DNA of 64,000 bases, taken from contig NZ_CP120679.1 in NCBI RefSeq assembly GCF_029537375.1, positions 2,530,001-2,594,000 of the forward strand. The letters are read 5' to 3'. Positions 14,803 through 29,172 of the stretch are shown here, piece after piece. Made by a program: the position numbers and the translations under genes. This DNA is from Bacillus sp. HSf4 (lineage in GTDB: Bacteria; Bacillota; Bacilli; Bacillales; Bacillaceae). The notes beneath the pieces are model-generated. The model ran no database searches. It saw only the letters and a program-made list of their open reading frames with translations, and had not been told where the DNA came from. Every line of letters starts with the position of its first letter. Position 1 is the stretch's first letter.

Positions 14803-16783
14803 ACGCTTTTAAAGCCGAAACTTCTTCCGGGCGGCTTCTGTCCCGCTTCCACATGAGCTGAAGGACGAACAGGAGAACGAACATTCCGAGCCCGATCAAA
14901 TCTGTATATCCTTCGGGATAAATCAGCAATAGACCGCTAAGCGCCGCCCATATTCTTTCATACCAAAACACTTTTCTCATCCAGAAGCCGATCATCCCGG
15001 CCCCGATGGCAATCATCCCTGACAATGCGGTCACAATCACCCAGATGATCTCATACCAGTGGGCATCTATCATGAGAAGCTCCGGTGACAGGACGAATAT
15101 ATACGGAATAATAAAAGCGGCGATGGCGAGTTTGGCGGAATTGATTCCGGTTTTGATCGGCTCCCCTCCCGCAACGCCCGCCGCCGCAAAAGCGGCCAGG
15201 GCAACAGGCGGGGTGATGTCCGCCACAATGCCAAAATAAAAGACAAACAGGTGGGCCGACAGATCCGGTACATTCAATAAGATCAAGGCAGGCGCGGCAA
15301 TCGTGGATGTGATCACATAGTTCGCCGTTGTCGGCGACCCCATTCCGAGGATCAAAGCGGCGACCATCGTCAAAAAGAGTGAAGGCAATAATGCGCCGCC
15401 CGCCAAGTCGAGCAGTCCGTTTGCCAGCTTAAGCCCGAGCCCCGTCTTTGTAACGACGCCGACGATAATCCCGGCTGCAGCCGTTGCCGCGGCCACTGAA
15501 AGCGCCATTCTCGCCCCTTCAGCCAAAGCGAGCACAATCCCTTTCAGCCCCAGCCTCGTTTCTTTGTTGAAAAAACCGACAACAATAGCCAGCACGATCG
15601 AGTACAGCGCGGCATGCATGACGATGATTCCCGACATGAGCAGCAAGACGACTGAAATGATCGGCAACAGGAGGTAAATCTTTTTAAATACTTCCTTCCG
15701 ATTCGGCATCTCTTCTTTTGATAGCCCCCGCAACCCCAGGCGCTTCGCTTCAAAATGCGTCATTATCCAAATGCCTGTAAAGTAAAGAACAGCCGGAATC
15801 ATCGCCGCTTTTGCAATATCCCAATACGTAATCCCGCCGCCGATGAATTCCACCATTAAAAAGGCGGCCGCCCCCATAATCGGAGGCATCAGCTGTCCGC
15901 CAGTCGATGCGGACGCTTCAACGGCACCGGCAAACTCCCTTTTATAGCCAAGCTTTTTCATCATCGGAATCGTAAACGACCCCGAAGTGACGACATTGGC
16001 AACGGAGCTGCCGCTGATTGTTCCTTGAAGGGCGCTGGAGAAGATCGCTACTTTGGCGGGCCCGCCCGTGCTCCTTCCGGCGATGGCAACGGCAAGATCG
16101 TTAAAATATTGCCCCACTCCTGTTCGGACGAGAAACGCGCCGAACAAAATAAACAGGAAGATAAAGGTCGAGGAAACAGCAAGAGGCGTTCCCAAGATCC
16201 CTTCTGTCGTAAAATACATCGTTTGGACAAGCCTTTCCAAAGTCAGCCCGTTGTGAGACAGAAACCCCGGCAGATAGGAGCCGTAAAGCCCGTAAAGAAG
16301 AAACAAGCCGGCGATGATCGTAATCGGCAGGCCGACAGCCCTTCTTGTCGCTTCCAATACCAAAAGGACAGCCAGAAGACCGACATAAAAGTCGGTGGTT
16401 GTAATCAGGCCGATGCCGCCGACAATCGTTTTATAATTGATGACCCAGTAGGCGCCGACACCGGCTCCCATAACGGCTAACAGACAATCATACCAGGCCA
16501 CTTTAAACTTGCCGGTTTTCCGCATGCGTTTTGTCGCCGGAAACAAGAGAAAGATCAGACCGAGCGCAAATCCTAAATGGACGGACCTTTGAATTTGAGC
16601 CGGAAAGACCCCGAAAATGGCTGTATATAATTGAAACAATGAAAATGCGAGCAAACCGATAAATGATATGGCCCCCGCCAATCCCTTCAGCTTTCTCGTT
16701 CCCTGTTCCGGATCGTATTTTTCCAGCAGTTCCTGCTGCTCTTTTTCAGAAAGTTCAGCAATGTGCTCCTTTTGCTCAGCCAT
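14801..16783 (-). CDS. TRAP transporter fused permease (TAXI type)
   Basis: This 660-residue integral membrane protein has many hydrophobic helices and combines the small (DctQ-like, N-terminal) and large (DctM-like) TRAP subunits, as is usual for TAXI-type systems. Landmarks are the long GSSVANVVTSGSFTIPMMKK and ASTGGQLMPPIMGAAAFLM segments and, in the second half, GMGSPTTANYV and DITPPVALAAFAAAGVA. It is a secondary, ion-gradient-driven importer dependent on the binding protein encoded two genes upstream. It overlaps the DUF1850 gene by 8 nt. The solute is unknown; related systems handle C4-dicarboxylates, glutamate or other organic acids. Confidence 0.88.
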   Translation of the reverse strand: MAEQKEHIAELSEKEQQELLEKYDPEQGTRKLKGLAGAISFIGLLAFSLFQLYTAIFGVFPAQIQRSVHLGFALGLIFLLFPATKRMRKTGKFKVAWYDCLLAVMGAGVGAYWVINYKTIVGGIGLITTTDFYVGLLAVLLVLEATRRAVGLPITIIAGLFLLYGLYGSYLPGFLSHNGLTLERLVQTMYFTTEGILGTPLAVSSTFIFLFILFGAFLVRTGVGQYFNDLAVAIAGRSTGGPAKVAIFSSALQGTISGSSVANVVTSGSFTIPMMKKLGYKREFAGAVEASASTGGQLMPPIMGAAAFLMVEFIGGGITYWDIAKAAMIPAVLYFTGIWIMTHFEAKRLGLRGLSKEEMPNRKEVFKKIYLLLPIISVVLLLMSGIIVMHAALYSIVLAIVVGFFNKETRLGLKGIVLALAEGARMALSVAAATAAAGIIVGVVTKTGLGLKLANGLLDLAGGALLPSLFLTMVAALILGMGSPTTANYVITSTIAAPALILLNVPDLSAHLFVFYFGIVADITPPVALAAFAAAGVAGGEPIKTGINSAKLAIAAFIIPYIFVLSPELLMIDAHWYEIIWVIVTALSGMIAIGAGMIGFWMRKVFWYERIWAALSGLLLIYPEGYTDLIGLGMFVLLFVLQLMWKRDRSRPEEVSALKA

Positions 16784-17303
16784 TTATCTTCACTCCCCTC
16801 AATTGTTGCAAGACATTTAATTTTTGAACGGACATCCTTGTCCATGAGCCGGGGCGGATATACCGTTTTAATTCATGGACTTTGCCGTTGTACCTGATCC
16901 GGTGGTTCGCCCTGACTCTCCCGATTCTCATATCGATATATGGGAATGTCCGCTTCATATTGGAGATGGTGTATATGCCGTTTTTGATGACGAGCTTTTC
17001 CCCTTCTCCCGCGTTCGCCGGCATTCCGACTGCCGGATCATGATAGCTCAAAGCTGTTTGTCTGATCTTTTTGTTCTCCCATACATACGATTCAACCACC
17101 TTTGTTTTGTGGATGGAATGCGTATAGATCACATCAAAGTTTTTCTTCTTTTGGAGGGGAAGAAAAGCGATGAGATCACCGCTGTCTTCTTTCATGAATA
17201 CAACGGCCGGCTGATATGGTATCAAACATGCTGCAATCGCTATGAAGATAAATGATAATGCGGCCAGCCCTTTCACCAGCTTCTTTTTTCTTATTTTTTC
17301 CAC
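16776..17303 (-). CDS. DUF1850 membrane-anchored protein of TRAP cluster
   Basis: This small protein has one N-terminal transmembrane segment (GLAALSFIFIAIAACLIP) and an outer domain with the DUF1850 pattern THSIHKTKVVE...RYIRPGSWTRMSV. DUF1850 genes commonly sit between the binding protein and permease of TAXI TRAP systems, as here. The frame is open to a TTG at 17384, but a long hairpin (17322-17365) lies in that stretch, so a GTG at 17303 (175 residues) is proposed. No good ribosome-binding site supports either choice. Its role, perhaps assembly or solute hand-over, is unknown. Confidence 0.7.
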   Translation of the reverse strand: MEKIRKKKLVKGLAALSFIFIAIAACLIPYQPAVVFMKEDSGDLIAFLPLQKKKNFDVIYTHSIHKTKVVESYVWENKKIRQTALSYHDPAVGMPANAGEGEKLVIKNGIYTISNMKRTFPYIDMRIGRVRANHRIRYNGKVHELKRYIRPGSWTRMSVQKLNVLQQLRGVKING

Positions 17304-17321
17304 ATCCTCATACCGAACAGA

Positions 17322-17365
17322 AAATCGATAGACCGTCGTTTCACCTAAAAGCGGTCTATCGATTT
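17322..17365 (-). terminator. Attenuating hairpin inside the TRAP operon
   Basis: AAATCGATAGACCG and CGGTCTATCGATTT form a perfect 14-base inverted repeat with a 16-base loop. On the minus strand it is followed by an imperfect T tract (TTTTCTGTT). It lies just after the binding protein stop and could reduce transcription into the DUF1850 and permease genes. Confidence 0.55.
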
Positions 17366-17386
17366 CGGGATGATTCCCGGTCAAAG

Positions 17387-18382
17387 TTATTCGTTTGGCT
17401 TTTCGATCCCTTTTTCTTTGTAATACTTGGCTGCCCCCGGATGGATCTCGATATCGCCCAATCCTTCAAGCGCTGTTTCCGGCTTGATAAACTCGCCCTT
17501 TGCATGATTGATTTTATCCGCTTCAAAAAGCGCTTTTGTCATCTTGTAGACGGTGTCTTCATCCAGCTTGTCGGTCCCAACAAGCATCGCTTTGACCGCC
17601 ACTGTGTTCACATCTTTGTCGATCCCGTACGTTCCGCTTTTAATCGTATCCTTCGCATAAAACGGATATTTCTCCATCAGCTTTTTCTGTTTGTCTTCTC
17701 CAATGTTTAAGATTTTGATTTTATTTTGTGCAGACAGCCCTTCAACTGCCCCTGTAGGCGTTCCGGCCGTAATAAATGCAGCGTCGATCGCACCGGACTG
17801 GATGCCGTCGGTTGATTCTTCAAATGAAAGATTTTGCGGTTTGATATCGTCAAAGGTAAGCCCGTGGACCTCCAAAATCTGCTTGGCGTTGATGTTGACC
17901 CCTGCGCCTGCTGCGCCCACGGAAACCGTTTTTCCTTTTAAGTCTTCAATAGAATCGATCCCGCTTTTTTCTGTCGTCACAATCTGCACCGTCTCCGGAT
18001 AAAGGGCGGCAATCGCTTTGATTCCGTCAATTTTTTCTTGAAACATCTCTTTGCCCTCTACGGCATAAGTGGCAATGTCAGTCTGAGAAAAAGCGACTTC
18101 AGCTTCCCCTTTTTGCAGAGTGGCCATATTTTCAGCCGATGCCCCTGTTGTCTGTGTGGTAAATTTGTCTCCTGTCGCATCCTCCCACAGATTTGCAAAC
18201 TGCCCGCCAAGCGGATAATATGTACCGCCGGTTCCTCCTGTAAGCAGACTGTAGCTTCCTGATCCTTTTGACGCAGATCCCCCATCCTTATTTCCTGATG
18301 CATTGTCGCTTCCGCACGCGGCCAATCCCATGACAAGCGCCAGCATCAATACTAACCATGATAAGCTTTTCCACTTTTTCAT
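17387..18382 (-). CDS. TAXI-family TRAP solute-binding lipoprotein
   Basis: This 331-residue extracytoplasmic receptor has a lipoprotein signal peptide ending in the lipobox LAAC (Cys23), then a Ser/Gly-rich linker and a TAXI-type binding domain (SLLTGGTGGTYYPLGGQFANLW near residue 45, later VSVGAAGAGVNINA and AAFITAGTPTGAVEGL). It is the first gene of the TRAP set. Anchoring to the outer face of the membrane is expected in this Gram-positive setting. The ligand cannot be predicted from sequence. Confidence 0.9.
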   Translation of the reverse strand: MKKWKSLSWLVLMLALVMGLAACGSDNASGNKDGGSASKGSGSYSLLTGGTGGTYYPLGGQFANLWEDATGDKFTTQTTGASAENMATLQKGEAEVAFSQTDIATYAVEGKEMFQEKIDGIKAIAALYPETVQIVTTEKSGIDSIEDLKGKTVSVGAAGAGVNINAKQILEVHGLTFDDIKPQNLSFEESTDGIQSGAIDAAFITAGTPTGAVEGLSAQNKIKILNIGEDKQKKLMEKYPFYAKDTIKSGTYGIDKDVNTVAVKAMLVGTDKLDEDTVYKMTKALFEADKINHAKGEFIKPETALEGLGDIEIHPGAAKYYKEKGIEKPNE

Positions 18383-18781
18383 TCATTCTCCCCCTTTGCT
18401 TGTTGGACAAATAACAATTCTATCGTACCATGAAAATTGGATTAATTGTCAATATATTCTTTCATTTCTAATTCTTTAGTCAATTTTATGAGCGACCGGT
18501 TCTTAATATGCCATGTCCGCGGCAAAATCCGTTCACCGGTCTAGGTTCGTCCAACCAACCACAAAATGGAAGTTTATTTACAAAGAAAAAATTAAAACCT
18601 GATAAAACGTCATCTTCTCAAGGACACGAAAAAGTGACCCGAGATAAAAGGACAAGTGAACCTGGAGCCAACGGTCTGCCGCACACTAAAAATGTGCATC
18701 CGCCTCCAAAAAAGAGGAAGATGCTCATTCGGTACATGATCACTTTGATATGAAATAAAGGAGAAAAATCATTTATGCAGC
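18383..18781. other. Gene-free stretch between the TRAP and flavoenzyme operons
   Basis: A minus-strand TTGACA (18452-18447) and TACGAT (18427-18422), 19 bases apart, could be the TRAP promoter. An 81-codon plus-strand frame (18508-18753) rich in Lys, Pro and Ser has no ribosome-binding site and no recognised family, so it is not called. No terminator for the operon ending at 18782 was recognised. Confidence 0.35.
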
Positions 18782-19759
18782 TTAAAAAGGAATATGAATC
18801 CCAACCTTATGTTCAATAGCCTTTTGATAAAAATATTGAGCGACTACAATATCCACAACAGCTAATCCAACTGATTTAAAAACAGTGATTTCTTGATCAT
18901 CGACTCGTCCGTTGCATTCTCCGCTTACAATTTGCCCAAGCTCTCCGTAGATGTCGCCAGGCTTAAAAACGCCTTCGCTTATCGGAACTTGTAAATCACC
19001 AGTCTCCTCTAATGCTGCTTCACTAGATTCCACTACGACTTTATCGGCTAGAGACATGACATGAGATGGCAACTCTTGCATTGCTGGTCTAAATGAACCT
19101 ACTGCATTGACATGAACCCCCTGTTTTAATGGCTCTGAAAATACCGGTGTTGTAGAATTTGTTGTCGTTACAATAATGTCAGCTTCACGTACTGCTTCAT
19201 CCGGGTCTGAATAGACGCGTACTCGTTTATTAAATTTCTTTTTAATATATTCGCTAAATTGTTGTGCTTTTTGTTCTGTTCGGTTATAAAGTAAAACCTC
19301 TTCAATGTCTCGAACAGCGAGTACAGCTTCAACCAGACCTTTTGCTTGTTCCCCTGTACCGATTATACATAGCTTTTTTGAATCTTGGCGGGATAAATAT
19401 TTCGTTGCTACACCTGATAAGGCGCCTGTTCTCATCATCGTTAAATAAGAGCCTTCCAAAAGAGCGATTGGTTCTCCTGTTTTGAAGTCTGACAACATCA
19501 CAACACCATTGATCGTTTTCTTCCCTAAGGTCTTATTATGAGGCGCTACGGTGACTATTTTTAATCCAAGGGTCCTGAGCTCTTCAGCTACCGAAGGCAT
19601 GACCAATGCAGTATTTTGACCATGATCAAACTGTAATGCGGCACGAATCGGTGTAATTGTTCTTTCTTCTGAAAATTCTTTCAATGCGACAGCGGCGCAT
19701 TCAATGATCTCATTCATATTGACTAAACTTTTTTGTTCATCAGCGTTTAAGATTAACAT
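18782..19759 (-). CDS. Ornithine cyclodeaminase / mu-crystallin family reductase
   Basis: This 325-residue NAD(P)-binding protein has the family layout: an N-terminal substrate domain with RTGALSGVATKYLSR near residues 110-124, a Rossmann domain with IIGTGEQAKGLVEAV, and the segment NAVGSFRPAMQELP. True ornithine cyclodeaminases have a catalytic Asp within the GGD form of that last motif; here it reads GSF, so cyclodeamination is unlikely. The better guess is an imine reductase such as a 1-pyrroline-2-carboxylate (or piperideine) reductase, which would turn the dehydrogenase product encoded upstream into an L-imino acid. It is the last gene of the operon, with AGGAAAGGATG before its ATG. Confidence 0.8.
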   Translation of the reverse strand: MLILNADEQKSLVNMNEIIECAAVALKEFSEERTITPIRAALQFDHGQNTALVMPSVAEELRTLGLKIVTVAPHNKTLGKKTINGVVMLSDFKTGEPIALLEGSYLTMMRTGALSGVATKYLSRQDSKKLCIIGTGEQAKGLVEAVLAVRDIEEVLLYNRTEQKAQQFSEYIKKKFNKRVRVYSDPDEAVREADIIVTTTNSTTPVFSEPLKQGVHVNAVGSFRPAMQELPSHVMSLADKVVVESSEAALEETGDLQVPISEGVFKPGDIYGELGQIVSGECNGRVDDQEITVFKSVGLAVVDIVVAQYFYQKAIEHKVGIHIPF

Positions 19760-19835
19760 GTTTTTTCATCCTTTCCTGCAAATTGCGGAAGACTTATTCC
19801 GTTCTTTTGTTTCTGGTATGGTGTCTTCATGACGA

Positions 19836-21017
19836 TCACTGCTTGACATGGACATTGAATCTGTCATACCGGAGTGGTTCAATCGGAATCGATGTATCAT
19901 GTTCATTGATCATTTCTGAAATGACTTGACCTGTAATCGCCGCTAAGCTTATGCCGTCCCCTTCATGTCCCGCTGCTATATAAAATCCCGGCACCTTTTC
20001 AACATGTGAAATAATCGGAAGGTGGTCAGCGGTCCACGGCCGTAATCCCGCGTATGTTCTGATCACCGTCATATCGGCAATTTTAGGATAAAAACGAACA
20101 GCTCTTTTGGCGATACATTTCATCACTTCATGATTCACTTTTGTGTCATATCCATTAAATTGACGACTGCTGCCAATTAAAAAGTTTTGGCTTTCGGTAG
20201 GCTCGAAAACCAATGCAACTCCGTATTGATCAGTTAAGGGATCCACTTTCCTCTCCCCGCCAAATTTTGAAATAAGGTAGCCAAATTCCATGACATTTCT
20301 TAATCCAACAGACTGTTGTCTAGAAGCAACCATGACCTGACCTTTACGCGGCTTTATTGGAATGTCTATACCGAGCATCTCTCCAATAAACGGAGCCCAT
20401 ACCCCGCACGCATTGACAACCTTATTCGCTGTAAAGGTTCCGTTATTTGTCTCAATGACAAATTGATTGACTTGATTTTGATAAAGCTGTTTCACTTCCG
20501 TATTCGTATGTACTTTCGCTCCGAATTGTTGGGCACGGTGAATCATCGAGTATGTGAGCATATAGGGACTGACGATCGAATCAGTCCTGCACTCAAGCCC
20601 GCCTGGGAGATCGTCTGAAAAGTAAGGAGATTCATTGCGCAAGTCTTCCCGATCCAACAGTCGAAAATCCAGGCCTGCATCTTGTTGTTGCCGGACCCAT
20701 TTTTGTGCAGCTTCCATTTCCGTGTCGTTTTCACAAACTAAAACACTGCCAGGGTTCCGATATTCAAATGGGATTTCAAGCTCATGGCTTAATTCATGCA
20801 CCAATTGTTGACTTTTTAGAGCCATTTGACTATCAAAGCCAGGATCCTTATCCACTGCTAAAATATTTCCATCGCATTTAGAGGATGTTCCACTCGCCAA
20901 TTCATTTTTTTCGAGAACCGTGATATCCAAACCGGATTTTGAGCAATAGTAAGCGATCGCTGAACCGATAATTCCACCCCCGATGACAACAACATCGCGA
21001 TGAAATGTGCTATTCAT
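19836..21017 (-). CDS. FAD-dependent amino-acid dehydrogenase, beta subunit (DAO family)
   Basis: This 393-residue flavoprotein is of the D-amino acid oxidase / glycine oxidase fold. The dinucleotide motif VVIGGGIIGSAIAYYC is at residues 10-25, LEKNELASGTSSKCDGN follows, and the C-terminal FAD segment is GLRPWTADHLPIISHV...YIAAGHEGDGISLA. It resembles the beta subunits of HcnC, opine oxidase and hydroxyproline or proline dehydrogenase complexes. The start overlaps the stop of the alpha-subunit gene as ATGA, implying a complex with coupled translation. Electrons would pass to the alpha and iron-sulfur subunits rather than directly to oxygen. The substrate is an imino or N-substituted amino acid by inference. 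Confidence 0.8.
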   Translation of the reverse strand: MNSTFHRDVVVIGGGIIGSAIAYYCSKSGLDITVLEKNELASGTSSKCDGNILAVDKDPGFDSQMALKSQQLVHELSHELEIPFEYRNPGSVLVCENDTEMEAAQKWVRQQQDAGLDFRLLDREDLRNESPYFSDDLPGGLECRTDSIVSPYMLTYSMIHRAQQFGAKVHTNTEVKQLYQNQVNQFVIETNNGTFTANKVVNACGVWAPFIGEMLGIDIPIKPRKGQVMVASRQQSVGLRNVMEFGYLISKFGGERKVDPLTDQYGVALVFEPTESQNFLIGSSRQFNGYDTKVNHEVMKCIAKRAVRFYPKIADMTVIRTYAGLRPWTADHLPIISHVEKVPGFYIAAGHEGDGISLAAITGQVISEMINEHDTSIPIEPLRYDRFNVHVKQ

Positions 21018-22246
21018 GTGACCCCGCCTCCTAGACTTCTTTTAGTAGATTGATAAACTTCCCATTGCTGTGAGATTTTCTTTCTTCCGGCCTCTATTTC
21101 CGGGTGGAATTGTATATATGCACGATTTCTGATCTGTTCAGTCATTTTAATAGAATCTTGAATCTCCATATCCAATCCTTTCTTTCCGGCGCGGTGTGCA
21201 ATTGATAAACCTGCCGTTTTCCCCTGTGCAGCAGCAACCTTTGCTCCTTCAATACCCGTAATGTTTCCCGCAACATACAGTCCTTCTAAAGGGCTTTCCA
21301 TCCTTTCATTATGTAAAGGGACATAGCCTCCCAGTTCTTCCACTAAATAAAATGGACAACCTGCAACTGCCGCTAATTCAGCTAATGGGTATAAACCTCC
21401 GGCAATACAAACGAAATCCACTTCAATCTGTTCCTCACTGCCATAAACGACTTCCCCATCGGCATTAATTGTTGCTATTGTCACGCCTTCCACTTTATTC
21501 TCGCCATAAATCTCGATGACAGCTTTTCGAAGTTGAATGGGAATGCCCCACATCTTCACTCCTTTTTTAGGGTATAACTGAACGCCCAATTTTTTCATAA
21601 AATCATTCTTCATGAATTTGCTGCCATAGCGAACAAGTCGAGACGGAGCCATATGGGAGACATGAAGAAGTGAATCCATGACTTCTCCTGGATGACCGGC
21701 ACCCTTTGTCATACCGTTCATCTTTGGTAAAGTGAGACAAGCGATCTCTACGCCAGCTAGTTGTAATTCCATAGCAATGGCAGCCGAGAGAACATTCACA
21801 CCGATTATCACCCCGCGCTCCCCGGGCTTGATCCGATGAACATTTGTCATCACCTGTGCGGCCCCAACCGACATAACGCCGGGTAATGTCCAACCGGGTA
21901 CAGGTAGAGGGGATTCGGCTGCACCGGTTGCTAACAACAAATGATTGGTATAAAATGTTTGTTTTTCCGTATAAACAACCCAGCGTCCATTTGATTTCTC
22001 GATATGATGTACCGCTACATTTAAATGAAATGTCACGCCAAGCTTCACAGCTTTTTCATATAATGCAGCTGATTCTTTCATCCCATTCCACCAAGACCCA
22101 TTCGGTTCTTCATAAAGCTGTCCGAGCAACCTGCCGCCAGCTTTCATATATTCATCAATGACGACAACATCCACTCCATTTTCTGCACAAGTCACTGCCG
22201 CTGTTAAACCTGCAGGTCCGGCGCCTATAATCATCGCATTATCCAT
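21014..22246 (-). CDS. NAD/FAD-binding oxidoreductase, alpha subunit
   Basis: This 410-residue protein of the two-dinucleotide-binding type resembles the alpha subunits of HcnB, opine oxidase and proline dehydrogenases. The first FAD motif is IIGAGPAGLTAAVTCAENG (residues 6-24), a middle segment is ATGAAESPLPVPGWTLPGVM, the second dinucleotide motif is GVIIGVNVLSAAIAMEL, and the end has GLYVAGNITGIEGAKVA. The start chosen is the ATG at 22246, preceded by GGAGG at good distance and overlapping the 2Fe-2S gene stop by 8 nt. Related alpha subunits often carry a BFD-like 2Fe-2S domain at the C-terminus; here that module is a separate gene. Confidence 0.8.
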   Translation of the reverse strand: MDNAMIIGAGPAGLTAAVTCAENGVDVVVIDEYMKAGGRLLGQLYEEPNGSWWNGMKESAALYEKAVKLGVTFHLNVAVHHIEKSNGRWVVYTEKQTFYTNHLLLATGAAESPLPVPGWTLPGVMSVGAAQVMTNVHRIKPGERGVIIGVNVLSAAIAMELQLAGVEIACLTLPKMNGMTKGAGHPGEVMDSLLHVSHMAPSRLVRYGSKFMKNDFMKKLGVQLYPKKGVKMWGIPIQLRKAVIEIYGENKVEGVTIATINADGEVVYGSEEQIEVDFVCIAGGLYPLAELAAVAGCPFYLVEELGGYVPLHNERMESPLEGLYVAGNITGIEGAKVAAAQGKTAGLSIAHRAGKKGLDMEIQDSIKMTEQIRNRAYIQFHPEIEAGRKKISQQWEVYQSTKRSLGGGVT

Positions 22247-22580
22247 TTCCCAGTCCTCCATCTCCTTTACTGGCTGGTTGCAGTCCGCCGCTGCTTTCAA
22301 CAACCATTCCCTCTTTAAGAGGTGTAAGACATGCCCGGATCCCCTGTTGACCGTCTACCGATACTCTACACTCATAACAATGGCCAATATTACAATAGAT
22401 ACCTCTTGGTGACCCGCTCTTTTCGTGATGTCGAAGCGTGCGAATTCCATTGGCTAAAAGTGCCGCTGCCAAAGATTCATTTTCCAGCCCTTTGTAGACC
22501 TTATGATTAAATGTAAAGGAAACATCATGATCATCCTTAATTTTTCCGAGTATAGGGTGGTTTGAGATTCTGCGCGTCAT
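22239..22580 (-). CDS. 2Fe-2S ferredoxin-like subunit (HcnA-like)
   Basis: This 113-residue protein with a ferredoxin fold has the cluster ligands in GIYCNIGHCYECRVS and a fourth Cys in GIRACLTPL. This cysteine-rich pattern (C-x4-C-x2-C, then C) matches the small iron-sulfur subunits of HcnA and opine or hydroxyproline dehydrogenase type. It overlaps the BFD-like gene as ATGA and the alpha-subunit gene by 8 nt, so all three are probably translated together. It would shuttle electrons within the complex. Confidence 0.8.
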   Translation of the reverse strand: MTRRISNHPILGKIKDDHDVSFTFNHKVYKGLENESLAAALLANGIRTLRHHEKSGSPRGIYCNIGHCYECRVSVDGQQGIRACLTPLKEGMVVESSGGLQPASKGDGGLGNG

Positions 22581-22846
22581 CGATCTTCCCCTCCTAAATT
22601 TTTAAAGCTAACCGGTCGTATAGGCGGCTGATATTTCAATGATACACATGTCGGATTTTGATGATTCGCTGCCGCCGCTATTTGATCGACAATAGTCCGG
22701 CATGTTCTTCCGCCGCAATAGCCCATGCCCGCCCTCGTACGAAGCTTTAATTCCCTGGACGAGCATTTATACCTGGCGGCTGTAGTCTCCAATTCCTTGA
22801 AACTGACTTCTTCACACCTGCATATAATCATTTCATCTTCTTTCAT
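22577..22846 (-). CDS. Stand-alone BFD-like 2Fe-2S protein
   Basis: This small protein (89 residues from the ATG at 22846; the GTG nine bases earlier is part of the GAGGTG ribosome-binding site) has MIICRCEEVS (C-x-C) followed by GYCGGRTCRTIV (C-x4-C), the four-cysteine pattern of the bacterioferritin-associated ferredoxin family. It is the first of four overlapping enzyme-subunit genes. In many related dehydrogenases this domain is fused to the alpha chain, so a split subunit is proposed, as in four-subunit proline dehydrogenases of some archaea. Confidence 0.8.
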   Translation of the reverse strand: MKEDEMIICRCEEVSFKELETTAARYKCSSRELKLRTRAGMGYCGGRTCRTIVDQIAAAANHQNPTCVSLKYQPPIRPVSFKNLGGEDR

Positions 22847-22929
22847 TGGAAACACCTCAATTTATACTTGATGAATACGGGATGAAACCGGAATGATCGT
22901 TAGACGGTTACAATCTTAAATGAACGATA

Positions 22930-24285
22930 TCAGGACACTTCTTCATTCCCTATATCAAGCTTTCTTTCTTCCGATTTATTCAAAACAGCGGTAATCATAC
23001 CGATAACAGCTCCAATCAGTCCAGTTACGATCCATCCCGCCCCGATATGAAACAGCGGGATGAAGGAAAAGGTTTGACTAATAAAATCCGCAAAAATATT
23101 TGCTTCTTTTAAAGCATCTAACAATGCGACAAATCCACTGCCAATAATTGAACCGATATATACGGATTGATAACCTTTGAATAGATTATTGATGAAGGAA
23201 AGAACAATTAACGTAATCGCTATTGGATATAAAAGAAGGAGAATTGGCGACGCTAACTCAAGTATTGTGTTCAAACCAAAATTGGTAATGATTAAACTAA
23301 CAACAGCTAAGAGCACTACCCATTTTTTGTAAGAAACTTTCGGGTAGATTCTATTAAAATATTCTGCTACTGATGATAAACATGCTATGTTTGTTGTGAT
23401 TCCGGTTAAAAATATAACAGTCCCTATTAAAAATACTCCGCCATATCCAAACAAATGGATTGCACTTTTTGCCAACACTTCTCCGCCATTGCTGGCATAT
23501 CCAATCGCCTCAACACTCGATCCTCCTATCCAGGCTAAAGATAACTGCAAAAGCACCAAGCCAACGACCGTTATCATTCCTGCTTTCATAAAAACAACGG
23601 ATATTTCTTTTTTCCCTTCAACTCCCACATTTTGAATCGATTTGATGAAAATTCCTCCGAATGTAAACGCGGCAAGAACATCCATTGTATAATATCCTTG
23701 AACAAACCCTTTAAAAAACGTATCTTGTATATACGGTTCTTTCGGTTCACCAAAGCTCCCCATTGGGGTCATCAATGACTTGACGATTAAGATGATTAAA
23801 AGCGTAACAAATATAGGCGTTATCATTTTCCCCAGCCGATCGACAAACTTACTTGGGTTAAGAGAAAGCAAAACAGTCATGAGAATAAACAGAAAAGAAA
23901 ACAGAAATAAGAAAGCATGATTTGATTGAACCCTCTCAGTGATGACAGGGTTTACCGATATCTCATATACGACTGATGTCGTTCTTGGAATGACGTAGAT
24001 GGGTCCTAAGGTTAAAAAAAGAGCGATCGAAAATATCATCCCGAACTTTGGATGTACTCTTGACGCAAGCTTCTCTACCGTACCTCCCGAGATGGCTAAT
24101 GCGATAATGGCTAATAAGACAAGTCCGACACCTGTAATCAAAAACCCTGACATCGCAATCCATGTGTTCGTTCCTGCAAGTTGACCGACCATTGGTGCGA
24201 ATATGGTGTTACCGGCCCCGAGAAACATCGCAAATAACATCAGACCGATAGCCATAAGTTGTCCTGCCGACAAAGTATTTTTCAT
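22930..24285 (-). CDS. brnQ: BrnQ/LivJ-type branched-chain amino acid permease family
   Basis: This 451-residue polytopic membrane protein has about 12 hydrophobic helices and the family opening MLFAMFLGAGNTIFAPMVGQ near residues 16-35, plus GYYTMDVLAAFTFGGIFI in the middle. Members are sodium-coupled importers of leucine, isoleucine and valine, and some accept proline-like solutes. It is the first gene transcribed of the flavoenzyme operon, 83 bases before the BFD gene, with AGGGGGAC upstream of its ATG. That position suggests it brings in the substrate of the dehydrogenase rather than serving general branched-chain uptake. The symbol names the family only. Confidence 0.8.
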   Translation of the reverse strand: MKNTLSAGQLMAIGLMLFAMFLGAGNTIFAPMVGQLAGTNTWIAMSGFLITGVGLVLLAIIALAISGGTVEKLASRVHPKFGMIFSIALFLTLGPIYVIPRTTSVVYEISVNPVITERVQSNHAFLFLFSFLFILMTVLLSLNPSKFVDRLGKMITPIFVTLLIILIVKSLMTPMGSFGEPKEPYIQDTFFKGFVQGYYTMDVLAAFTFGGIFIKSIQNVGVEGKKEISVVFMKAGMITVVGLVLLQLSLAWIGGSSVEAIGYASNGGEVLAKSAIHLFGYGGVFLIGTVIFLTGITTNIACLSSVAEYFNRIYPKVSYKKWVVLLAVVSLIITNFGLNTILELASPILLLLYPIAITLIVLSFINNLFKGYQSVYIGSIIGSGFVALLDALKEANIFADFISQTFSFIPLFHIGAGWIVTGLIGAVIGMITAVLNKSEERKLDIGNEEVS

Positions 24286-24341
24286 TTAAAGTCCCCCTTA
24301 TCATGTAAAGAACCTCTCTCTGCATATCATCCATCTCCCTT

Positions 24342-24355
24342 TGTAAACGCTTTAA
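24342..24355 (-). promoter_or_regulatory. cre-like site before brnQ
   Basis: TGTAAACGCTTTAA matches 13 of 14 positions of the consensus TGWNANCGNTNWCA. It lies 57 bases before the brnQ ATG, where CcpA binding would repress the operon on preferred sugars. Confidence 0.45.
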
Positions 24356-24442
24356 TTTGATGCAGAGAAAATAAAAACGGTTAGCCATCACAGTGATACC
24401 TTATCCATGAATTGAACGGACACTAAAATCAACATTTAAAAA

Positions 24443-24459
24443 TTTAAGTGACAATTAAA
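24443..24459. promoter_or_regulatory. Operator-like palindrome, copy 1
   Basis: TTTAAGTG, one base, CAATTAAA. The right arm differs by one base from the perfect copy at 24545-24561. Confidence 0.45.
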
Positions 24460-24544
24460 TTTTAGACTAAAAATAATAGATAGAAGGAAACGCTAATAAA
24501 ATAACTTCACCTCCTAAAGTCCATATTTTAAAACAAATTAAATT

Positions 24545-24561
24545 TTTAAGTGTCACTTAAA
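24545..24561. promoter_or_regulatory. Operator-like palindrome, copy 2
   Basis: TTTAAGTG, T, CACTTAAA: perfect 8-base arms, followed at once by a third left half TTTAAGTG (24563-24570). A dimeric HTH protein such as the adjacent XRE regulator could bind it. Confidence 0.5.
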
Positions 24562-24887
24562 TTTTAAGTGTTGATGTTATTATACTTTTCATTTTCTAAA
24601 AATTCAATCATTTAATGATTTTTCTTAAAGCATATCTTTGGTCACAGTTGTTTTTAAATATGAGAGGTAAAAATGAGATAACTTCACTTTCCAAGGTCGA
24701 CATGTTAAAATTAAGAATAATTAAAAATGGATTCTTTTAAGCAGTGGTTAAATTATAAAATGAAACAAATCGGGTCGACAACTGCTTCGTGAGAACATAT
24801 TACAGACGATTTCTTTTGACAAAGTTTTTTGAACCCGGATCTCTGTAATGTTGAACAGACCAGCAGCTTATTTTTTGGGGGTAAAAA

Positions 24888-25436
24888 ATGGATTCAGATG
24901 TAGGACATTTAATTAAAAGGCTCCGCAAAGAGAAAAAAATGACATTGAAGGAAGTCTCCGAAAAAACAGGCTTATCGATCAGCTTCATATCCCAGGTAGA
25001 ACGTTCTCTATGTTCCATTACATTGCTTTCCTTACGAAAAATATCTGAAGCTCTCGGGGTCAGTCCCAGTTATTTCTTTCCCGACAATATACAAATTGAC
25101 AAAAACATGATTAGACGAGCTTCTGACAGACAAGTTGAACATAAGACATCCTTTACCTATTCGGATCTATCCGGCAATGTATCGAACCCCTTGTTTGTGC
25201 CCATTTTCGTTACCCTGATGCCTGGTGATAAAAGAGGCATACCTTTTTCTCATGAAGGGCAGGAATTTATTTACGTCATCGAAGGCATGATGACGATCAT
25301 TTTTGATGACGTAGAATACGATCTTTTCCCCGGGGACAGCATCCATATAGAATCAACCAAACCTCACAACTGGTTTAACAAAACAGACAAACCTACGAAT
25401 TTTATATTTGTTAGTGCCGCCCCCTCTCGTGATTGA
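24888..25436 (+). CDS. XRE-family regulator with C-terminal cupin domain
   Basis: This 182-residue DNA-binding protein has an N-terminal helix-turn-helix (residues about 8-62; LKEVSEKTGLSISFISQVER) and a C-terminal cupin (residues about 105-180) with FSHEGQEFIYVIEGMMTI and the second cupin motif LFPGDSIHIESTKPHNWFN. This PuuR-like layout is common in regulators of amino-acid and polyamine catabolism, with the cupin binding the inducer. It is divergent from the brnQ-flavoenzyme operon and is the obvious candidate to control it through the palindromes between them. A GGGGGT ribosome-binding site precedes the ATG. Confidence 0.85.
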   Translation: MDSDVGHLIKRLRKEKKMTLKEVSEKTGLSISFISQVERSLCSITLLSLRKISEALGVSPSYFFPDNIQIDKNMIRRASDRQVEHKTSFTYSDLSGNVSNPLFVPIFVTLMPGDKRGIPFSHEGQEFIYVIEGMMTIIFDDVEYDLFPGDSIHIESTKPHNWFNKTDKPTNFIFVSAAPSRD

Positions 25437-25480
25437 TTCCATATCTCAACAAGTGTCTTACGGGACAAGCAGTGCAAAAT

Positions 25481-25513
25481 AAAGGATCGATTTTTTAAAA
25501 AAATCGATCCTTT
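25481..25513. terminator. Bidirectional terminator between the XRE gene and gmuR-like gene
   Basis: AAAGGATCGATTTTTT / AAAAAATCGATCCTTT forms a near-perfect hairpin with T runs on both strands, between convergent genes. Confidence 0.85.
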
Positions 25514-25553
25514 TGTTATGGCTATGCAAACACTCCTACTCATGCAGTTTTGA

Positions 25554-26267
25554 TCATTTCCGAATATGAACGCTGGAAAACACAAATTTATCATAGCGAT
25601 GTCTTGCAAAAGAATATTCAAACGGCTCCCCCGTATTTAAAAATGCGACCTGTTCGACTTCAAGCACCGGATCGTCGGCAGCGCATTCCAGATATTTGCG
25701 GTCCAGTTCCGTCGGCTTATCCGCCCTGATTTTCCGGTGGGAGCCGGCGATTGTCAATTTCAGCGTTTCCGTGATATGCCGATAAACAGAGCTGTGAAGC
25801 ACATCTTCGTTTAATTCTCGAATCACGTTGGAAGGCATGTATGTTTCTTCAATGACATACGGTTCGCCTTCGACCTTCCGGAGCCTGATGATGTGATACA
25901 CCGGAACGCTCTTTTCGATTGATAATCGATCAGCCACTTCCGGCGACGGAAACTCAACATCAAACTGAATGATGCGGCTTTCGATCTGTTTGTTGGCGAG
26001 AAGTTTTGTCAACCCAAGGTTTTCACGATCCGTCACGCTGACGGGGAGATCCTGAATGGATGATTTCACAATAAAGGTGCCGTGCCCCCGTTTGCGGTAC
26101 AGCATACCTTCTGAAACGAGAATGTCGAGAGCCCTTTTCATCGTCATTCTGCTGCAGGAAAATTCTTTGGCGAGAGAAAGCTCATCAGGTATGGGCTGAT
26201 CGACCGGATAGCATTCCTCCTGAATCCGCCTCCTCATTTCATTTGAAATATATTCGTATTTTCTCAT
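25554..26267 (-). CDS. gmuR: GntR/HutC-family repressor of beta-glucoside PTS operon (GmuR-like)
   Basis: This 237-residue regulator, the same length I recall for B. subtilis GmuR, has an N-terminal winged helix (LAKEFSCSRMTMKRALDILVSEG near residues 33-55, ending GHGTFI) and a C-terminal UTRA effector domain (EETYMPSNVIREL, then EYSFARHRYDKFVF at the end). UTRA proteins of this type bind sugar phosphates such as glucose-6-phosphate or cellobiose-6-phosphate. It follows the phospho-beta-glucosidase gene after a hairpin and appears to have its own TATAAT. It probably represses the gmuBACD-like genes by binding palindromes before gmuB. Confidence 0.8.
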   Translation of the reverse strand: MRKYEYISNEMRRRIQEECYPVDQPIPDELSLAKEFSCSRMTMKRALDILVSEGMLYRKRGHGTFIVKSSIQDLPVSVTDRENLGLTKLLANKQIESRIIQFDVEFPSPEVADRLSIEKSVPVYHIIRLRKVEGEPYVIEETYMPSNVIRELNEDVLHSSVYRHITETLKLTIAGSHRKIRADKPTELDRKYLECAADDPVLEVEQVAFLNTGEPFEYSFARHRYDKFVFSSVHIRK

Positions 26268-26350
26268 GTTTTAACCACCAGTACTAAGGATTCTATTTTT
26301 ATGTTCTGTCCATTCTTTCTTATTATATCTGTTTTAGGCTGGAAATAAAA

Positions 26351-26371
26351 AGATGGCCTAAAAGACCATCT
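26351..26371 (-). terminator. Hairpin after the phospho-beta-glucosidase gene
   Basis: AGATGG / CCATCT with a 9-base loop is followed by TTTTTATTT on the minus strand. It lies before gmuR and may partly uncouple it. Confidence 0.6.
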
Positions 26372-26387
26372 CTTCTAACAGAACCGC

Positions 26388-27803
26388 TTAAAATCCGTTA
26401 TTTTCGCTGACCCGCTTAAACCAGTGGCCGCTCTTTTTAACCGTCCTCTCGCCGTTTTTGTCAAGGTTGACAGACACAAAGCCGTAGCGGTTTTTATAAG
26501 CGTTCGTCCACGACCAGTTGTCCATGAATGTCCACAGGTGGTAGCCCTTTACATTCGAGCCTTCCTGAATGGCTTGATGCACCCATTTTAAATGCTCTCT
26601 AATAAACGCAATCCGGTAGTCGTCATGGATCATGCCGTCTTCGCCAAGAAAACGCTCCTCTCCTTCAACCCCCATTCCGTTCTCGGAAATAAAGCATTCA
26701 ATATTACCGTAGTTGTTTTTGAGATTGATTAAAATATCATAAATACCCTTTTCATAAATCTCCCAGCCGCGGTGGCGGTTCATTTTGCGGCCCGGCATCT
26801 CATAGTTGTCAAAAAAGCGTTCAGGCATAAATGGCGCATCCGGGTGCGGCAGATGTTCTTTTGCTTTGACACGCCTCGGCTGATAATAGTTGACACCAAG
26901 CAGATCGACCGTATTCTCTTTGATCACGTCCAAATCGCCAGGCTTGGTTTCAGGCATGTATCCTTCCTCTTTTAAAATATCTGTTAAGTCTTGCGGAAAC
27001 TCGCCTTTTACGGCCGGATCAAGAAACGACCTGTTGAAGAATGCGTCGGCAATTTCAGATGCTTTAACATCTGCCGGATGACGGCTTCGCGGATAGGATG
27101 GCGTTAAATTTAAAATGATGCCGATTTTTCCGTCCCCGCCAAGATTCCGGTAGGCTTCGACCGCCTTGGCGTTTGACAAAATTTCGTGGTAGGCCACCTG
27201 CACGGCTTTCGCAAAATCCACTTCATTCGGATAATGAAAATCGTATAAATAGCCGCCTTCCGCCGGAACAATCGGCTCATTATGCGTAAACCATTTTTTG
27301 ACCCGGTCCCCGTAAAGGCGGAAGCAGGTTTCCGCGTATGAAACAAAATCGTCGACAACTTTCCGGTTTTCCCAGCCGCCGATTTCCTGAAGCGCAAGCG
27401 GCATATCAAAATGATAAAGGTTGACAAACGGTTCGATGCCTGCCGCAAGCAGCTCGTCGATGACTCGATTGTAAAAGGCCGCCCCTTCCTCGTTCAACAG
27501 ACCTTTTCCTTCAGGAAACAGCCGCGACCATGAAATCGAAAAGCGGAAAGAATTGTGGCCAAGCTCCTTCATCAGCTGAATGTCTTCTCTATAAGTCTCG
27601 TAAAAACGCGACGTTTTTTTTGGCCCCACTCCGTCGAAAAAACGATGGGGTTCTTTTTCATACCAGTGGTCCCAAATATTTTTCCCTTTGCCTCCTTCAT
27701 CGGCCGCCCCTTCGGTTTGAGTGGCTGATGCTGCCGATCCCCACCAGAAGTTTTTTGGAAAACGATATGGAAGTCGCTCTGTCTTTATTTCTGCTTTTGT
27801 CAT
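26388..27803 (-). CDS. gmuD: 6-phospho-beta-glucosidase, glycoside hydrolase family 1 (GmuD-like)
   Basis: This cytoplasmic GH1 enzyme of 471 residues hydrolyses phosphorylated beta-glucosides or beta-mannosides delivered by the PTS encoded beside it. Landmarks are the N-terminal FPKNFWWGSAASATQTEG, FRFSISWSRLFPEG, the acid/base Glu in THNEP (near residue 175), the nucleophile Glu in ISENGMG (near 370), and the closing WTFMDNWSWTNAYKNRYG, in which the Ser-x6-Lys-x-Arg-type residues point to the phosphate-binding subgroup. It is translated from AAAGGAG. The exact sugar (cellobiose, glucomannan oligomers) is inferred from gene order. Confidence 0.88.
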   Translation of the reverse strand: MTKAEIKTERLPYRFPKNFWWGSAASATQTEGAADEGGKGKNIWDHWYEKEPHRFFDGVGPKKTSRFYETYREDIQLMKELGHNSFRFSISWSRLFPEGKGLLNEEGAAFYNRVIDELLAAGIEPFVNLYHFDMPLALQEIGGWENRKVVDDFVSYAETCFRLYGDRVKKWFTHNEPIVPAEGGYLYDFHYPNEVDFAKAVQVAYHEILSNAKAVEAYRNLGGDGKIGIILNLTPSYPRSRHPADVKASEIADAFFNRSFLDPAVKGEFPQDLTDILKEEGYMPETKPGDLDVIKENTVDLLGVNYYQPRRVKAKEHLPHPDAPFMPERFFDNYEMPGRKMNRHRGWEIYEKGIYDILINLKNNYGNIECFISENGMGVEGEERFLGEDGMIHDDYRIAFIREHLKWVHQAIQEGSNVKGYHLWTFMDNWSWTNAYKNRYGFVSVNLDKNGERTVKKSGHWFKRVSENNGF

Positions 27804-27818
27804 GTCATCAATCTCCTT

Positions 27819-29135
27819 TTACAACCCTATCGTCGTCTTATTTTGTTCTGAAGCGCTGGTTTCCTGTTCTTTCTTCATATTCATACGGTCGATGAATTTC
27901 AAAAACGGGAACCAGATTAAAAAGACAACGGCTAAATTAAAAATCTGCAGGATGCCGCCGGCGAGCGAATTGGTGGCCATCATGCCGCTGATAAAAATCG
28001 GCACTGTCCAAGGAATCGTGACACCCGTCGGCGGCGGAACGATTCCTGAGGCCATGGCAAAATACGTGATCAGCGTGACGATCATCGGCGAGATGACCCA
28101 CGGAATGAAAATCAGCGGATTCATGACGATCGGCAGGCCGAAAATAATCGGTTCGTTTACATTAAAAATGCCCGGAGCCGCACCAAGCTTCGCCACCTGC
28201 TTCATCTGCTTGCTTCTCATAAACAATAGAATCGCAACGATGACGGCCAGCGTCATCCCGGTGCCTCCCATTCCGACCGTATAAACTTCCATAAACTGTT
28301 TGTTGATGATGTGCGGCACCTCACCTGTTGCCGTGTAGCTGTTTAAATTTTCAATAGATAGCGTATTCCAGATCGGATCCATCACCGAATTGATGATGAT
28401 TTGTCCGTGCAGCCCGAAGAACCACAGCAGCTGCGTAAAAAAGATGGCGACAAGGGTCGGAATGATACCGCTTCCAAGTCCGACAAGCGGCGCCTGAACG
28501 AGAGTGTAGATCAAATCATGCATATTCGTGTTGAACACCTGGGTGATGATGATATTAATGATTAAATAGACCGACAGCGTCATCACCGCCGGAATCAGCG
28601 CGGCAAATGATTTAGAAACCGCCGGCGGGACACCGGAAGGCATTTTAATCGTATAATTTTTCTGGACAAAAAACCTGAATATCTCGGCCGATGTAAAGGC
28701 CGTTATCATGCCGAGGAACATTCCTTTTGCACCGAGCCTGTCAATCGGAATGACATTGGAGACCGTTTCTCCGCCTTCTCCGTTTAAAAAGAACGGCGTA
28801 AGCAATAGGAACGACGCCAAAGCGACGACTCCCCCAAACACCGCCTCGACTTTATAGCTTTTGGATAGATAGTATCCGATCCCGAATACGACAAACACAG
28901 ACATGATGTTGATCGTGGCATTCGGAGCAATGCTTAAAACGGACTGAAAATTTTCAAGCGCTGATTTGCTCATCATTTTATTAAGGAACGGCAAATTCGT
29001 TAATACGACGATAATCGATCCGAAAATCGTGAGCGGAAAAGCCAGCATGAACGCGTCCCTAAGCACGCCTAAATACCGGTTGTTATTCAGCTTCCCGGCA
29101 ATCGGAACGAGAAGATTGCTTAGTTTTTCAAACAT
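27819..29135 (-). CDS. gmuC: PTS EIIC permease, lactose/cellobiose family (GmuC-like)
   Basis: This membrane channel component imports a beta-glucoside with phosphorylation. From the ATG at 29135 (438 residues, with GGGGGAAAC upstream) it begins FEKLSNLLVPIAGKLNNNRYLGVLRDAFM, the usual EIIC start. The frame open to 29216 overlaps the EIIA gene and is not preferred. Some ten hydrophobic helices and the conserved GAAPGIFNVNEPIIFGLPIVMNP motif near residues 310-335 are present. It lies 15 bases before the glucosidase gene. Confidence 0.9.
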   Translation of the reverse strand: MFEKLSNLLVPIAGKLNNNRYLGVLRDAFMLAFPLTIFGSIIVVLTNLPFLNKMMSKSALENFQSVLSIAPNATINIMSVFVVFGIGYYLSKSYKVEAVFGGVVALASFLLLTPFFLNGEGGETVSNVIPIDRLGAKGMFLGMITAFTSAEIFRFFVQKNYTIKMPSGVPPAVSKSFAALIPAVMTLSVYLIINIIITQVFNTNMHDLIYTLVQAPLVGLGSGIIPTLVAIFFTQLLWFFGLHGQIIINSVMDPIWNTLSIENLNSYTATGEVPHIINKQFMEVYTVGMGGTGMTLAVIVAILLFMRSKQMKQVAKLGAAPGIFNVNEPIIFGLPIVMNPLIFIPWVISPMIVTLITYFAMASGIVPPPTGVTIPWTVPIFISGMMATNSLAGGILQIFNLAVVFLIWFPFLKFIDRMNMKKEQETSASEQNKTTIGL

Positions 29136-29172
29136 GGTCGAAGTTTCCCCCTTATCCTTCGCCTTTTGCGGC

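Follow-up and report, generated by a model that had tools for sequence, protein, structure and literature searches.

A probable D-proline utilisation operon on an AT-rich island of Bacillus sp. HSf4

What does a four-part flavoprotein complex oxidise when its genes lie between those of an amino acid permease and of a protein of the ornithine cyclodeaminase (OCD) family? The question is raised by a locus of Bacillus sp. HSf4 (assembly GCF_029537375.1, contig NZ_CP120679.1, positions 2,530,001-2,594,000 of the forward strand). This stretch of 64,000 nt was analysed as a whole and is termed the window; all coordinates are window positions. The comparisons described below suggest that the locus is probably an island-borne D-proline utilisation operon, in which D-proline would be converted via pyrroline-2-carboxylate to L-proline.

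All six genes of the operon are on the minus strand. The first encodes a BrnQ-type permease (22930..24285; PF05525, Branch_AA_trans, 429 bits) which exceeds the cut-off of the BrnQ LIV-II carrier model (TIGR00796, 391 vs 243 bits). It is followed by genes for delta, a free-standing BFD-like [2Fe-2S] protein (22577..22855; PF04324, Fer2_BFD); gamma, a Fer2_4 [2Fe-2S] protein (22239..22580; PF13510); alpha, an FAD/Pyr_redox subunit (21014..22303, with an internal ATG at 22261 that may be the start; PF07992, Pyr_redox_2); and beta, the DAO-family catalytic subunit (19836..21017; PF01266, DAO), assigned further by its tree position and by residues Ile148 and Asn241. The last gene (18782..19759; PF02423, OCD_Mu_crystall) specifies an OCD-family reductase, proposed to act on delta1-pyrroline-2-carboxylate. 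A DAO-type FAD beta subunit is thus co-encoded with Pyr_redox alpha, Fer2 and BFD proteins, the BFD protein being separate from alpha, and the operon contains no epimerase (PF05544), deaminase or semialdehyde dehydrogenase gene. The BFD and Fer2 genes overlap at 22577-22580, alpha and beta at 21014-21017, and Fer2 and alpha at 22239-22303, or only to 22261 if alpha begins at the internal ATG; a 76 bp gap separates beta from OCD, and BrnQ and BFD likewise do not overlap. An XRE-cupin regulator (PF01381, HTH_3, with PF07883, Cupin_2) is divergently encoded on the plus strand (24888..25436). Coordinates and Pfam matches therefore confirm the gene set, single direction, three overlapping junctions and divergent regulator described in the original prediction.

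Operon and regulator form an AT-rich island of ca. 7 kb (18512..25541). In its seven genes third codon positions have a G+C content of 0.30-0.42, versus 0.44-0.60 in six measured flanking genes, which bears out the earlier remark that the region is richer in AT than its neighbours. When window positions 12001-34000 were compared by blastn with five loci of the same genus carrying the flanking TAXI gene, similarity stopped at 18490-18530 and restarted at 25542-25558; in these five relatives the island is absent and the two flanks are 86-138 bases apart. This absence favours the original suggestion of acquired DNA. Three further genomes of this genus (L043, L044, L045) and Pseudalkalibacillus salsuginis (L063) carry all six genes in an identical order. 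No match to phage records was found at 1e-40, and searches among open-licence papers revealed none describing this operon. The island is taken to be a small transferable gene unit in Bacillus.

The tree and a survey of neighbouring genes place the window beta among betas of Bacillales hydroxyproline-type clusters, with 59-79% identity to those of hydroxyproline-type loci. The six betas found in a BrnQ context are one clade (100/99) within a clade of 31 rows (99/97), 24 of which sit in such clusters. The complex thus appears to descend from an enzyme of the cis-4-hydroxy-D-proline dehydrogenase type, the direction of change being the one suggested by this nesting. Fusion of BFD to alpha is a defining feature of the HcnABC and opine oxidase families; here the BFD protein stands free. 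The opine oxidases and HcnABC had been named as relatives in the original prediction, and the complex does share their subunit superfamilies (PMC4575208), but with tree and neighbours placing beta in the Bacillales hydroxyproline-type-cluster family (opine and HCN enzymes were outside the direct alignment) opine or cyanide-forming oxidation is extremely improbable. On the strength of tree and neighbours, both readings were abandoned.

The Bacillales hydroxyproline catabolic cluster is described as comprising a c4Hyp oxidase, 4HypE, a DHDPS-family deaminase and a semialdehyde dehydrogenase (PMC4113996). It has the alpha, beta, Fer2 and BFD families in common with the window operon, as does, by its description, the "sox" locus of B. 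thuringiensis. Unlike that cluster, the window operon lacks an epimerase, deaminase, semialdehyde dehydrogenase and sigma54 regulator, and possesses instead BrnQ, an OCD reductase and an XRE-cupin regulator. By description, the D-hydroxyproline dehydrogenase of Pseudomonas and Azospirillum (alpha4beta4gamma4; PMC4575208) also has a flavoprotein beta with alpha and gamma, whereas the window complex would consist of four separate proteins, one of them carrying the BFD cluster alone.

A residue filter passed 19 positions of beta, including 148 and 241. Among 126 distinct Bacilli-type rows, [TS]148-K241 occurs in 100/100 betas with a racemase/epimerase-family or DHDPS-family neighbour (the first kind), and [ILMR]148-[NM]241 in 26/26 with neither neighbour (the second kind). 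Further distinct rows fit this rule (11/11 of the first kind and 2/2 of the second), so that in distinct Bacilli-type sequences the totals are 111/111 for Thr/Ser148 with Lys241 and 28/28, the window beta among them, for Ile/Leu/Met/Arg148 with Asn/Met241. Positions 55, 92, 288 and 290, four of the other seventeen, were compared over all lineages and showed no agreement with neighbours. The counts omit 13 clostridial-type betas (36-48% identity). Five of these have a racemase- or DHDPS-family neighbour (two with Lys241, accompanied by Ala148 and Ser148, and three with Asp241) and eight have neither (one Ser148-Lys241, seven Asp241); since they depart from the rule, it is claimed for Bacilli-type betas only. 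Betas of the second kind are spread over three lineages, and a single clade was rejected (lnL 110 worse, p 6e-39) on a tree from which 19 of 80 rows (long branches, near-copies) were omitted.

Thr148 and Lys241 are predicted to hold the 4-hydroxyl of the substrate, and their replacement accompanies the loss of epimerase and deaminase genes. In the window beta, Ile148 and Asn241 stand in place of this correlate of hydroxyproline-type neighbours. The genome has no proline-racemase-family (PF05544) gene over the cut-off; no member of that family is therefore seen that could supply the system as an epimerase or 3-hydroxyproline dehydratase. The ancestry of beta would favour a complex still acting on cis-4-hydroxy-D-proline, but with both residues replaced, no PF05544 gene over the cut-off, and an operon devoid of epimerase, deaminase and semialdehyde dehydrogenase genes, this is highly improbable; we dropped it on the first two of these grounds.

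In Bacilli genomes such genes are labelled "FAD-dependent oxidoreductase"; "sarcosine oxidase" is another label (PMC4941409). A dehydrogenase of sarcosine or another N-methyl amino acid, with beta demethylating sarcosine and the OCD protein in a side role, is a rival reading suggested by work on B. thuringiensis HD73. There a locus of the ancestral layout is reported to be essential for sarcosine as nitrogen source, proline use being unaffected; on sarcosine, mutants deleted for soxB or soxR took over 60 h to double instead of 21.6 h (PMC4941409), sarcosine use was also lost in a sigL mutant (PMC4428206), and gene set and divergent layout match those of relatives of the window beta. The locus, however, also has proline racemase, DHDPS and aldehyde dehydrogenase genes, glycine, the expected product of sarcosine, gave no growth support (over 60 h), and hydroxyproline and D-proline are absent from the nitrogen sources which that study lists (PMC4941409). 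In the window, sarcosine oxidase models score far below their cut-offs (soxA, TIGR01372, 101 of 1164 bits for alpha; soxB, 92 of 529), and sarcosine oxidation would give no role to the linked put genes or to a reductase of the pyrroline-2-carboxylate type. We regard sarcosine as an unlikely substrate. An established system such as sarcosine oxidation was what the original prediction had named as evidence against itself, and here the record is divided: the B. thuringiensis locus is reported to be needed for sarcosine use (PMC4941409), while the genes present there, like PMC4113996, are consistent with hydroxyproline.

Under the preferred D-proline reading, the OCD protein would complete the inversion. 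It scores 502 bits against NF006379 (cut-off 417), an unassigned model, and falls under the NCBIfam equivalog cut-offs of LhpI (138 of 400 bits) and PRK06141 (260 of 322). The stretch corresponding to the catalytic Asp of true ornithine cyclodeaminase (Asp228 of the P. putida enzyme) reads GSFRP, with Phe223 facing the Asp of the alanine dehydrogenase 1omo in their alignment. No other PF02423 member was found in the genome. The nearest solved chain to the OCD protein, the best of 15 solved matches, is the pyrroline-2-carboxylate reductase 6t3e (239 bits). NADPH-dependent conversion of the proline ketimine to L-proline is reported for OCD-superfamily proteins encoded near proline-racemase-family genes of Bacilli (PMC4113996). 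Two further beta-OCD pairs (L126, L189) have no proline-racemase-family gene in the fetched stretch and are followed by genes for a DUF819 protein and an M19 dipeptidase. Against the D-proline reading, the 11.9-kb contig of one member of the BrnQ clade (L075) carries no OCD gene; among 299 genomes, the OCD that comes closest from outside the clade of the operon (L178, 77%) has no adjoining beta; and for the second-kind lineage of 14 rows, a search within 8 kb of beta yielded no OCD.

An OCD-family pyrroline-2-carboxylate reductase also lies beside the four-part L-proline dehydrogenase described from Thermococcus (PMC4364671), and the nearest solved chain to beta, 1y56_B, has Asn opposite Asn241 (phmmer alignment). 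An archaeal-type alpha-beta-gamma-delta L-proline dehydrogenase producing P5C is nevertheless very unlikely here: the OCD enzyme would be left without a substrate, a separate proline dehydrogenase exists in the window genome and, in genome G008, beside the operon itself, and beta, on a tree without archaeal enzymes, nests in the hydroxyproline-cluster family. The window complex differs from that of Thermococcus in this grouping and in its proposed substrate, D-proline.

Two genomes link the operon to put genes. In G008, genes for P5C dehydrogenase, proline dehydrogenase, a glutamate-dehydrogenase-family protein, BrnQ, BFD, Fer2, alpha, beta and OCD follow one another in this order on one strand, and in P. 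salsuginis putB, putC and PutP lie upstream of the same operon. In another locus (L113) PutP directly follows a second-kind beta. Such linkage is rare (4/27 second-kind loci vs 2/123 others, p 0.01, uncorrected for kinship, with queries drawn from second-kind loci), and the only proline dehydrogenase gene found in the window genome is 2.1 Mb away, which counts against D-proline.

Also against D-proline, BrnQ carriers are known for branched-chain L-amino acids; the genome has two others, 45% and 43% identical to the operon permease. D-Valine, D-leucine or D-isoleucine might be imported by BrnQ, oxidised by the complex and reductively aminated to the L-form by the OCD protein, whose second-best solved relative is an OCD-superfamily alanine dehydrogenase; the substitution at 148 does make the site more apolar. 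The put linkage, the ancestry of beta and the cyclic imine substrate of the nearest solved reductase make this scheme improbable.

Between permease and regulator a 19-bp palindrome occurs twice as a candidate operator (24442..24460, ATTTAAGTGNCACTTAAAT, and 24544..24562, one mismatch each). The window has two matches at ≤3 mismatches vs 0.02 expected, and at ≤2 mismatches these are the only sites in the genome. A pattern search upstream of BrnQ found no sigma54 promoter, and scans for sigma70 promoters and terminators gave nothing beyond what shuffled sequences gave.

In the proposed pathway the permease would import D-proline, transport being presumably inward, and beta, with its FAD, would oxidise it to delta1-pyrroline-2-carboxylate. 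Electrons would travel through alpha and the [2Fe-2S] proteins gamma and delta to an acceptor, probably quinone, and the OCD-family enzyme would use NAD(P)H to reduce the imine to L-proline, which could enter protein synthesis or the housekeeping proline dehydrogenase/P5C dehydrogenase route. The XRE-cupin protein may control the operon, in whichever mode, from the two palindromic sites. The original idea of a 2-imino acid reduced to the L-form is favoured and can be narrowed to D-proline. Its net yield of electrons does not hold: two go to the acceptor of the complex and two come from NAD(P)H, a balance of none, and electrons are gained only once L-proline is burned by PutB/PutC. The same two-step logic, oxidation of a D-imino acid and reduction of the ketimine to the L-form, is found in the Pseudomonas D-proline/D-lysine route, where the DpkA-type reductase belongs to the MLD2 superfamily rather than to OCD.

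There is perhaps an even chance that, three separate times in Bacilli, a hydroxyproline-type D-imino acid dehydrogenase became a D-proline dehydrogenase via the same two residues (Thr148, Lys241), losing its epimerase and deaminase genes each time, and that one line gained a BrnQ-family D-proline permease, a reductase and an XRE-cupin switch with a single target to yield a mobile D-to-L proline inversion module, its substrate readable from two residues. The two-residue rule, with no exception in 126 + 13 distinct sequences, divides Bacilli-type betas into a hydroxyproline and a non-hydroxyproline kind; testable by single-enzyme assays, it would correct annotation and offer a natural, repeated case of substrate switching. 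If the D-proline reading is true, Bacillus would have a defined D-proline route, and a BrnQ carrier a role in D-amino acid uptake.

The minus strand of the window carries a six-gene operon between 18782 and 25436, accompanied by an XRE-cupin gene on the opposite strand. In order of transcription the operon encodes a BrnQ-type permease (22930–24285), a small BFD-type [2Fe-2S] protein (22577–22855), a Fer2_4 [2Fe-2S] protein (22239–22580), a Pyr_redox alpha flavoprotein (21014–22303), a DAO-family beta flavoprotein (19836–21017) and, last, an OCD/mu-crystallin-family protein (18782–19759); the divergent XRE-cupin gene occupies 24888–25436 (+). Three overlapping gene junctions had been predicted originally, and the gene coordinates bear this out. 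The beta gene is single-copy in the HSf4 genome, where the remaining matches are 23–30% identical. Among the 80 family genomes searched, four (HSf4 included), all of the same genus, have a beta at least 89% identical, and three further genomes have betas of 44–69% identity.

We propose that the BrnQ-type permease is a D-proline carrier, that the flavoprotein complex would oxidize D-proline to pyrroline-2-carboxylate (proline ketimine) with reduction of an acceptor, and that the OCD protein would reduce the ketimine to L-proline with NAD(P)H. The net result would be inversion, with electrons shifted from NAD(P)H to the acceptor. Of the inversion plus electrons originally predicted, the inversion is thus retained as a proposal; the net electrons are not, since the two steps cancel until L-proline is itself oxidized.

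The neighbourhoods of beta relatives point to the ancestry of the complex. In a set of 101 loci (the best 80 of at least 335 confirmed candidates, 20 further stretches and the window), a PrdR-like sigma54 regulator and a proline-racemase-family protein were each present in 69, and a DHDPS-family protein and an aldehyde dehydrogenase each in 66, with AgcS or NhaC carriers likewise frequent; these names are family-level, as examples of the racemase-family protein, regulator and aldehyde dehydrogenase scored below equivalog cut-offs. A gene set matching these neighbours is described for trans-4-hydroxyproline use in PMC4113996. A tree of 102 betas joins the six that neighbour BrnQ genes in a single clade (100/99). 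That clade is nested in one of 31 rows (99/97), of which 24 have hydroxyproline-type neighbours and one more has both such neighbours and an OCD gene.

The closest experimental report, PMC4941409, assigns such an ancestral-type locus to sarcosine: the Bacillus thuringiensis sox locus shares gene set and layout with the neighbourhoods of the beta relatives, and its soxB and soxR mutants had doubling times of over 60 h versus 21.6 h, with proline use unaffected. Its nitrogen-source table includes neither hydroxyproline nor D-proline and records no growth on glycine, which a simple sarcosine-to-glycine route leaves unexplained.

Two beta residues follow the gene context. When the six betas from BrnQ contexts were compared with 59 from hydroxyproline contexts, 19 positions passed a simple filter, including 148 and 241, which also divide lineages outside the discovery set. 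The residue count covered 148 rows (139 distinct), or 126 distinct Bacilli-type betas after removal of 13 clostridial-type rows, in which the rule fails. Thr/Ser148 with Lys241 occurred in 100/100 distinct betas lying within 8 kb of a proline-racemase-family or DHDPS-family gene, and a second kind, Ile/Leu/Met/Arg148 with Asn/Met241 (Ile148 and Asn241 in the window), in 26/26 lying near neither; the Fisher value of 6e-30 exaggerates the evidence because the rows are related. Part of the 126 came from a later sample of 46 loci from 49 places (HSf4 and two earlier loci omitted), and the 37 left after setting aside six repeats of earlier sequences and three previously inspected loci (L270, L271, L272) obeyed the rule (31/31 with such a neighbour, 6/6 without), as did 11/11 and 2/2 distinct rows from an additional 16 loci (three repeats). 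Since betas with a DHDPS-family but no racemase-family neighbour (e.g. L048, L049) keep Thr/Ser and Lys, the residues appear to relate to the 4-hydroxyl group, not to the epimerase as such. That beta branch (L048, L049, L267–L269, L349, L350) is accompanied by DHDPS, aldehyde dehydrogenase and AgcS genes, and relative G037 carries it besides a window-type operon. A 61-row tree built without columns 55, 92, 148 and 241 requires three changes between kinds, which may run either way, and placing the second kind in a single clade is rejected (lnL lower by 110, p 6e-39); both kinds are present in two genomes, G491 and G713. Directly after some second-kind betas lies a ca. 360-amino acid membrane protein (L115:11276–12361, L122:11267–12367, L129, L137, L255, L256, L257), which gave no Pfam match in two examples scanned and, judged from its sequence, is likely a transporter.

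The OCD protein is the sole PF02423 member found in the HSf4 genome. Among solved structures its best match is the pyrroline-2-carboxylate reductase 6t3e (239 bits), followed by an archaeal alanine dehydrogenase (181 bits). NADPH-dependent proline ketimine reduction has been shown for OCD-superfamily proteins encoded near Bacilli racemase-family genes (PMC4113996), and relatives of the window protein lie inside hydroxyproline-type clusters at L190, L192 and L254. Because HSf4 has no racemase-family gene over cut-off (a single 20.8-bit match falls below the 27-bit limit), the flavoprotein complex of the same operon is the natural source of the ketimine. Beta and OCD genes are also adjacent in L126 and L189, stretches free of racemase-family genes, and are followed there by genes for a DUF819 protein and an M19 dipeptidase; M19 enzymes are able to release C-terminal D-residues. 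At L179 an OCD protein of 62% identity is grouped with an SSF symporter and a DAO protein other than beta. Counting against the reductase reading, no OCD gene lies on the contig of L075, a member of the BrnQ clade, or within 8 kb of beta in a 14-row second-kind lineage, and L178 has a 77%-identical OCD protein without an adjoining beta. The L178 neighbours are an MFS carrier, a chemoreceptor, an amidohydrolase and 2-oxoglutarate semialdehyde dehydrogenase.

The operon and XRE-cupin gene form an island that had been described as AT-richer than its neighbours, in agreement with third-position GC of 0.30–0.42 in its seven genes versus 0.44–0.60 in the six neighbours measured. The TAXI gene downstream is present in 8/44 same-genus genomes (E 1e-150 or better). 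The operon lies beside it in three (HSf4, G037, G010); in the other five the flanks stop at window 18490–18530 and restart at 25542–25558, with a gap of 86–138 bases. G008 has the operon at another place and without the XRE gene. The 355-kb Pseudalkalibacillus hwajinpoensis plasmid NZ_CP156675.1 (L273) carries an annotated OCD-family gene of equal length adjoining a beta fragment (residues 247–393, 81%), apparently a remnant of the operon. These observations fit spread of the island by transfer between Bacilli; loss from the five relatives could also account for their state. A hydroxyproline-type cluster lies on the 301-kb Priestia megaterium plasmid NZ_CP009921.1 (L274), typed as mobilizable in PLSDB. 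Directly downstream of the island, 14801–18382 (−) encodes a TAXI-type TRAP transporter set (a permease judged fused from its sequence, a DUF1850 protein and an NMT1_3/TAXI-type binding protein), probably a separate unit because it is found in relatives without the island. On the other flank, 25554–29216 (−) holds genes for a GntR/UTRA regulator, a glycoside hydrolase and a PTS EIIC, the last two judged from translations only.

Between the permease and XRE-cupin genes are two candidate operators, copies of ATTTAAGTGNCACTTAAAT at 24442–24460 and 24544–24562, 102 bases apart centre to centre; these are the window's two matches at up to three mismatches, against 0.02 expected. At up to two mismatches the HSf4 genome has the pattern at these places only, and all matches in G010 (two), G037 (three) and Pseudalkalibacillus salsuginis (two) fall within the operon intergenic region; the pattern was derived from these regions, and only its absence elsewhere is a test, not its presence there. 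At the same threshold G008, where the XRE gene is missing, has one match, outside the operon intergenic region, and none is present in G012, which does not carry the operon. This fits an XRE-cupin regulator with a single target, putatively binding at these copies.

Proline genes adjoin the operon in some genomes. HSf4 has a single proline dehydrogenase found, at 404 kb, distant from the operon. Ahead of the XRE gene and operon, P. salsuginis has a proline dehydrogenase gene (above the PF01619 cut-off), a P5C dehydrogenase gene (partial reading; 701 bits against a cut-off of 648), a gene for an unassigned 228-amino acid protein and a PutP gene (653 bits, cut-off 516). PutP also follows the second-kind beta of L113 (731 bits), and another lies 1.3 kb past alpha in L122. 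Put genes occur in 4/27 second-kind loci versus 2/123 others (p 0.01, kinship ignored), with queries drawn from second-kind loci. In G008 one strand encodes a P5C dehydrogenase with 828 bits (cut-off 660), a proline dehydrogenase above the PF01619 cut-off (280 of 500 bits for the NCBIfam Thermus-type model), a protein of the glutamate dehydrogenase family (524 of 750 bits), BrnQ, BFD, Fer2, alpha, beta, OCD and an MFS carrier. On the proposed reading, this row of genes would constitute an unbroken path from D-proline to 2-oxoglutarate.
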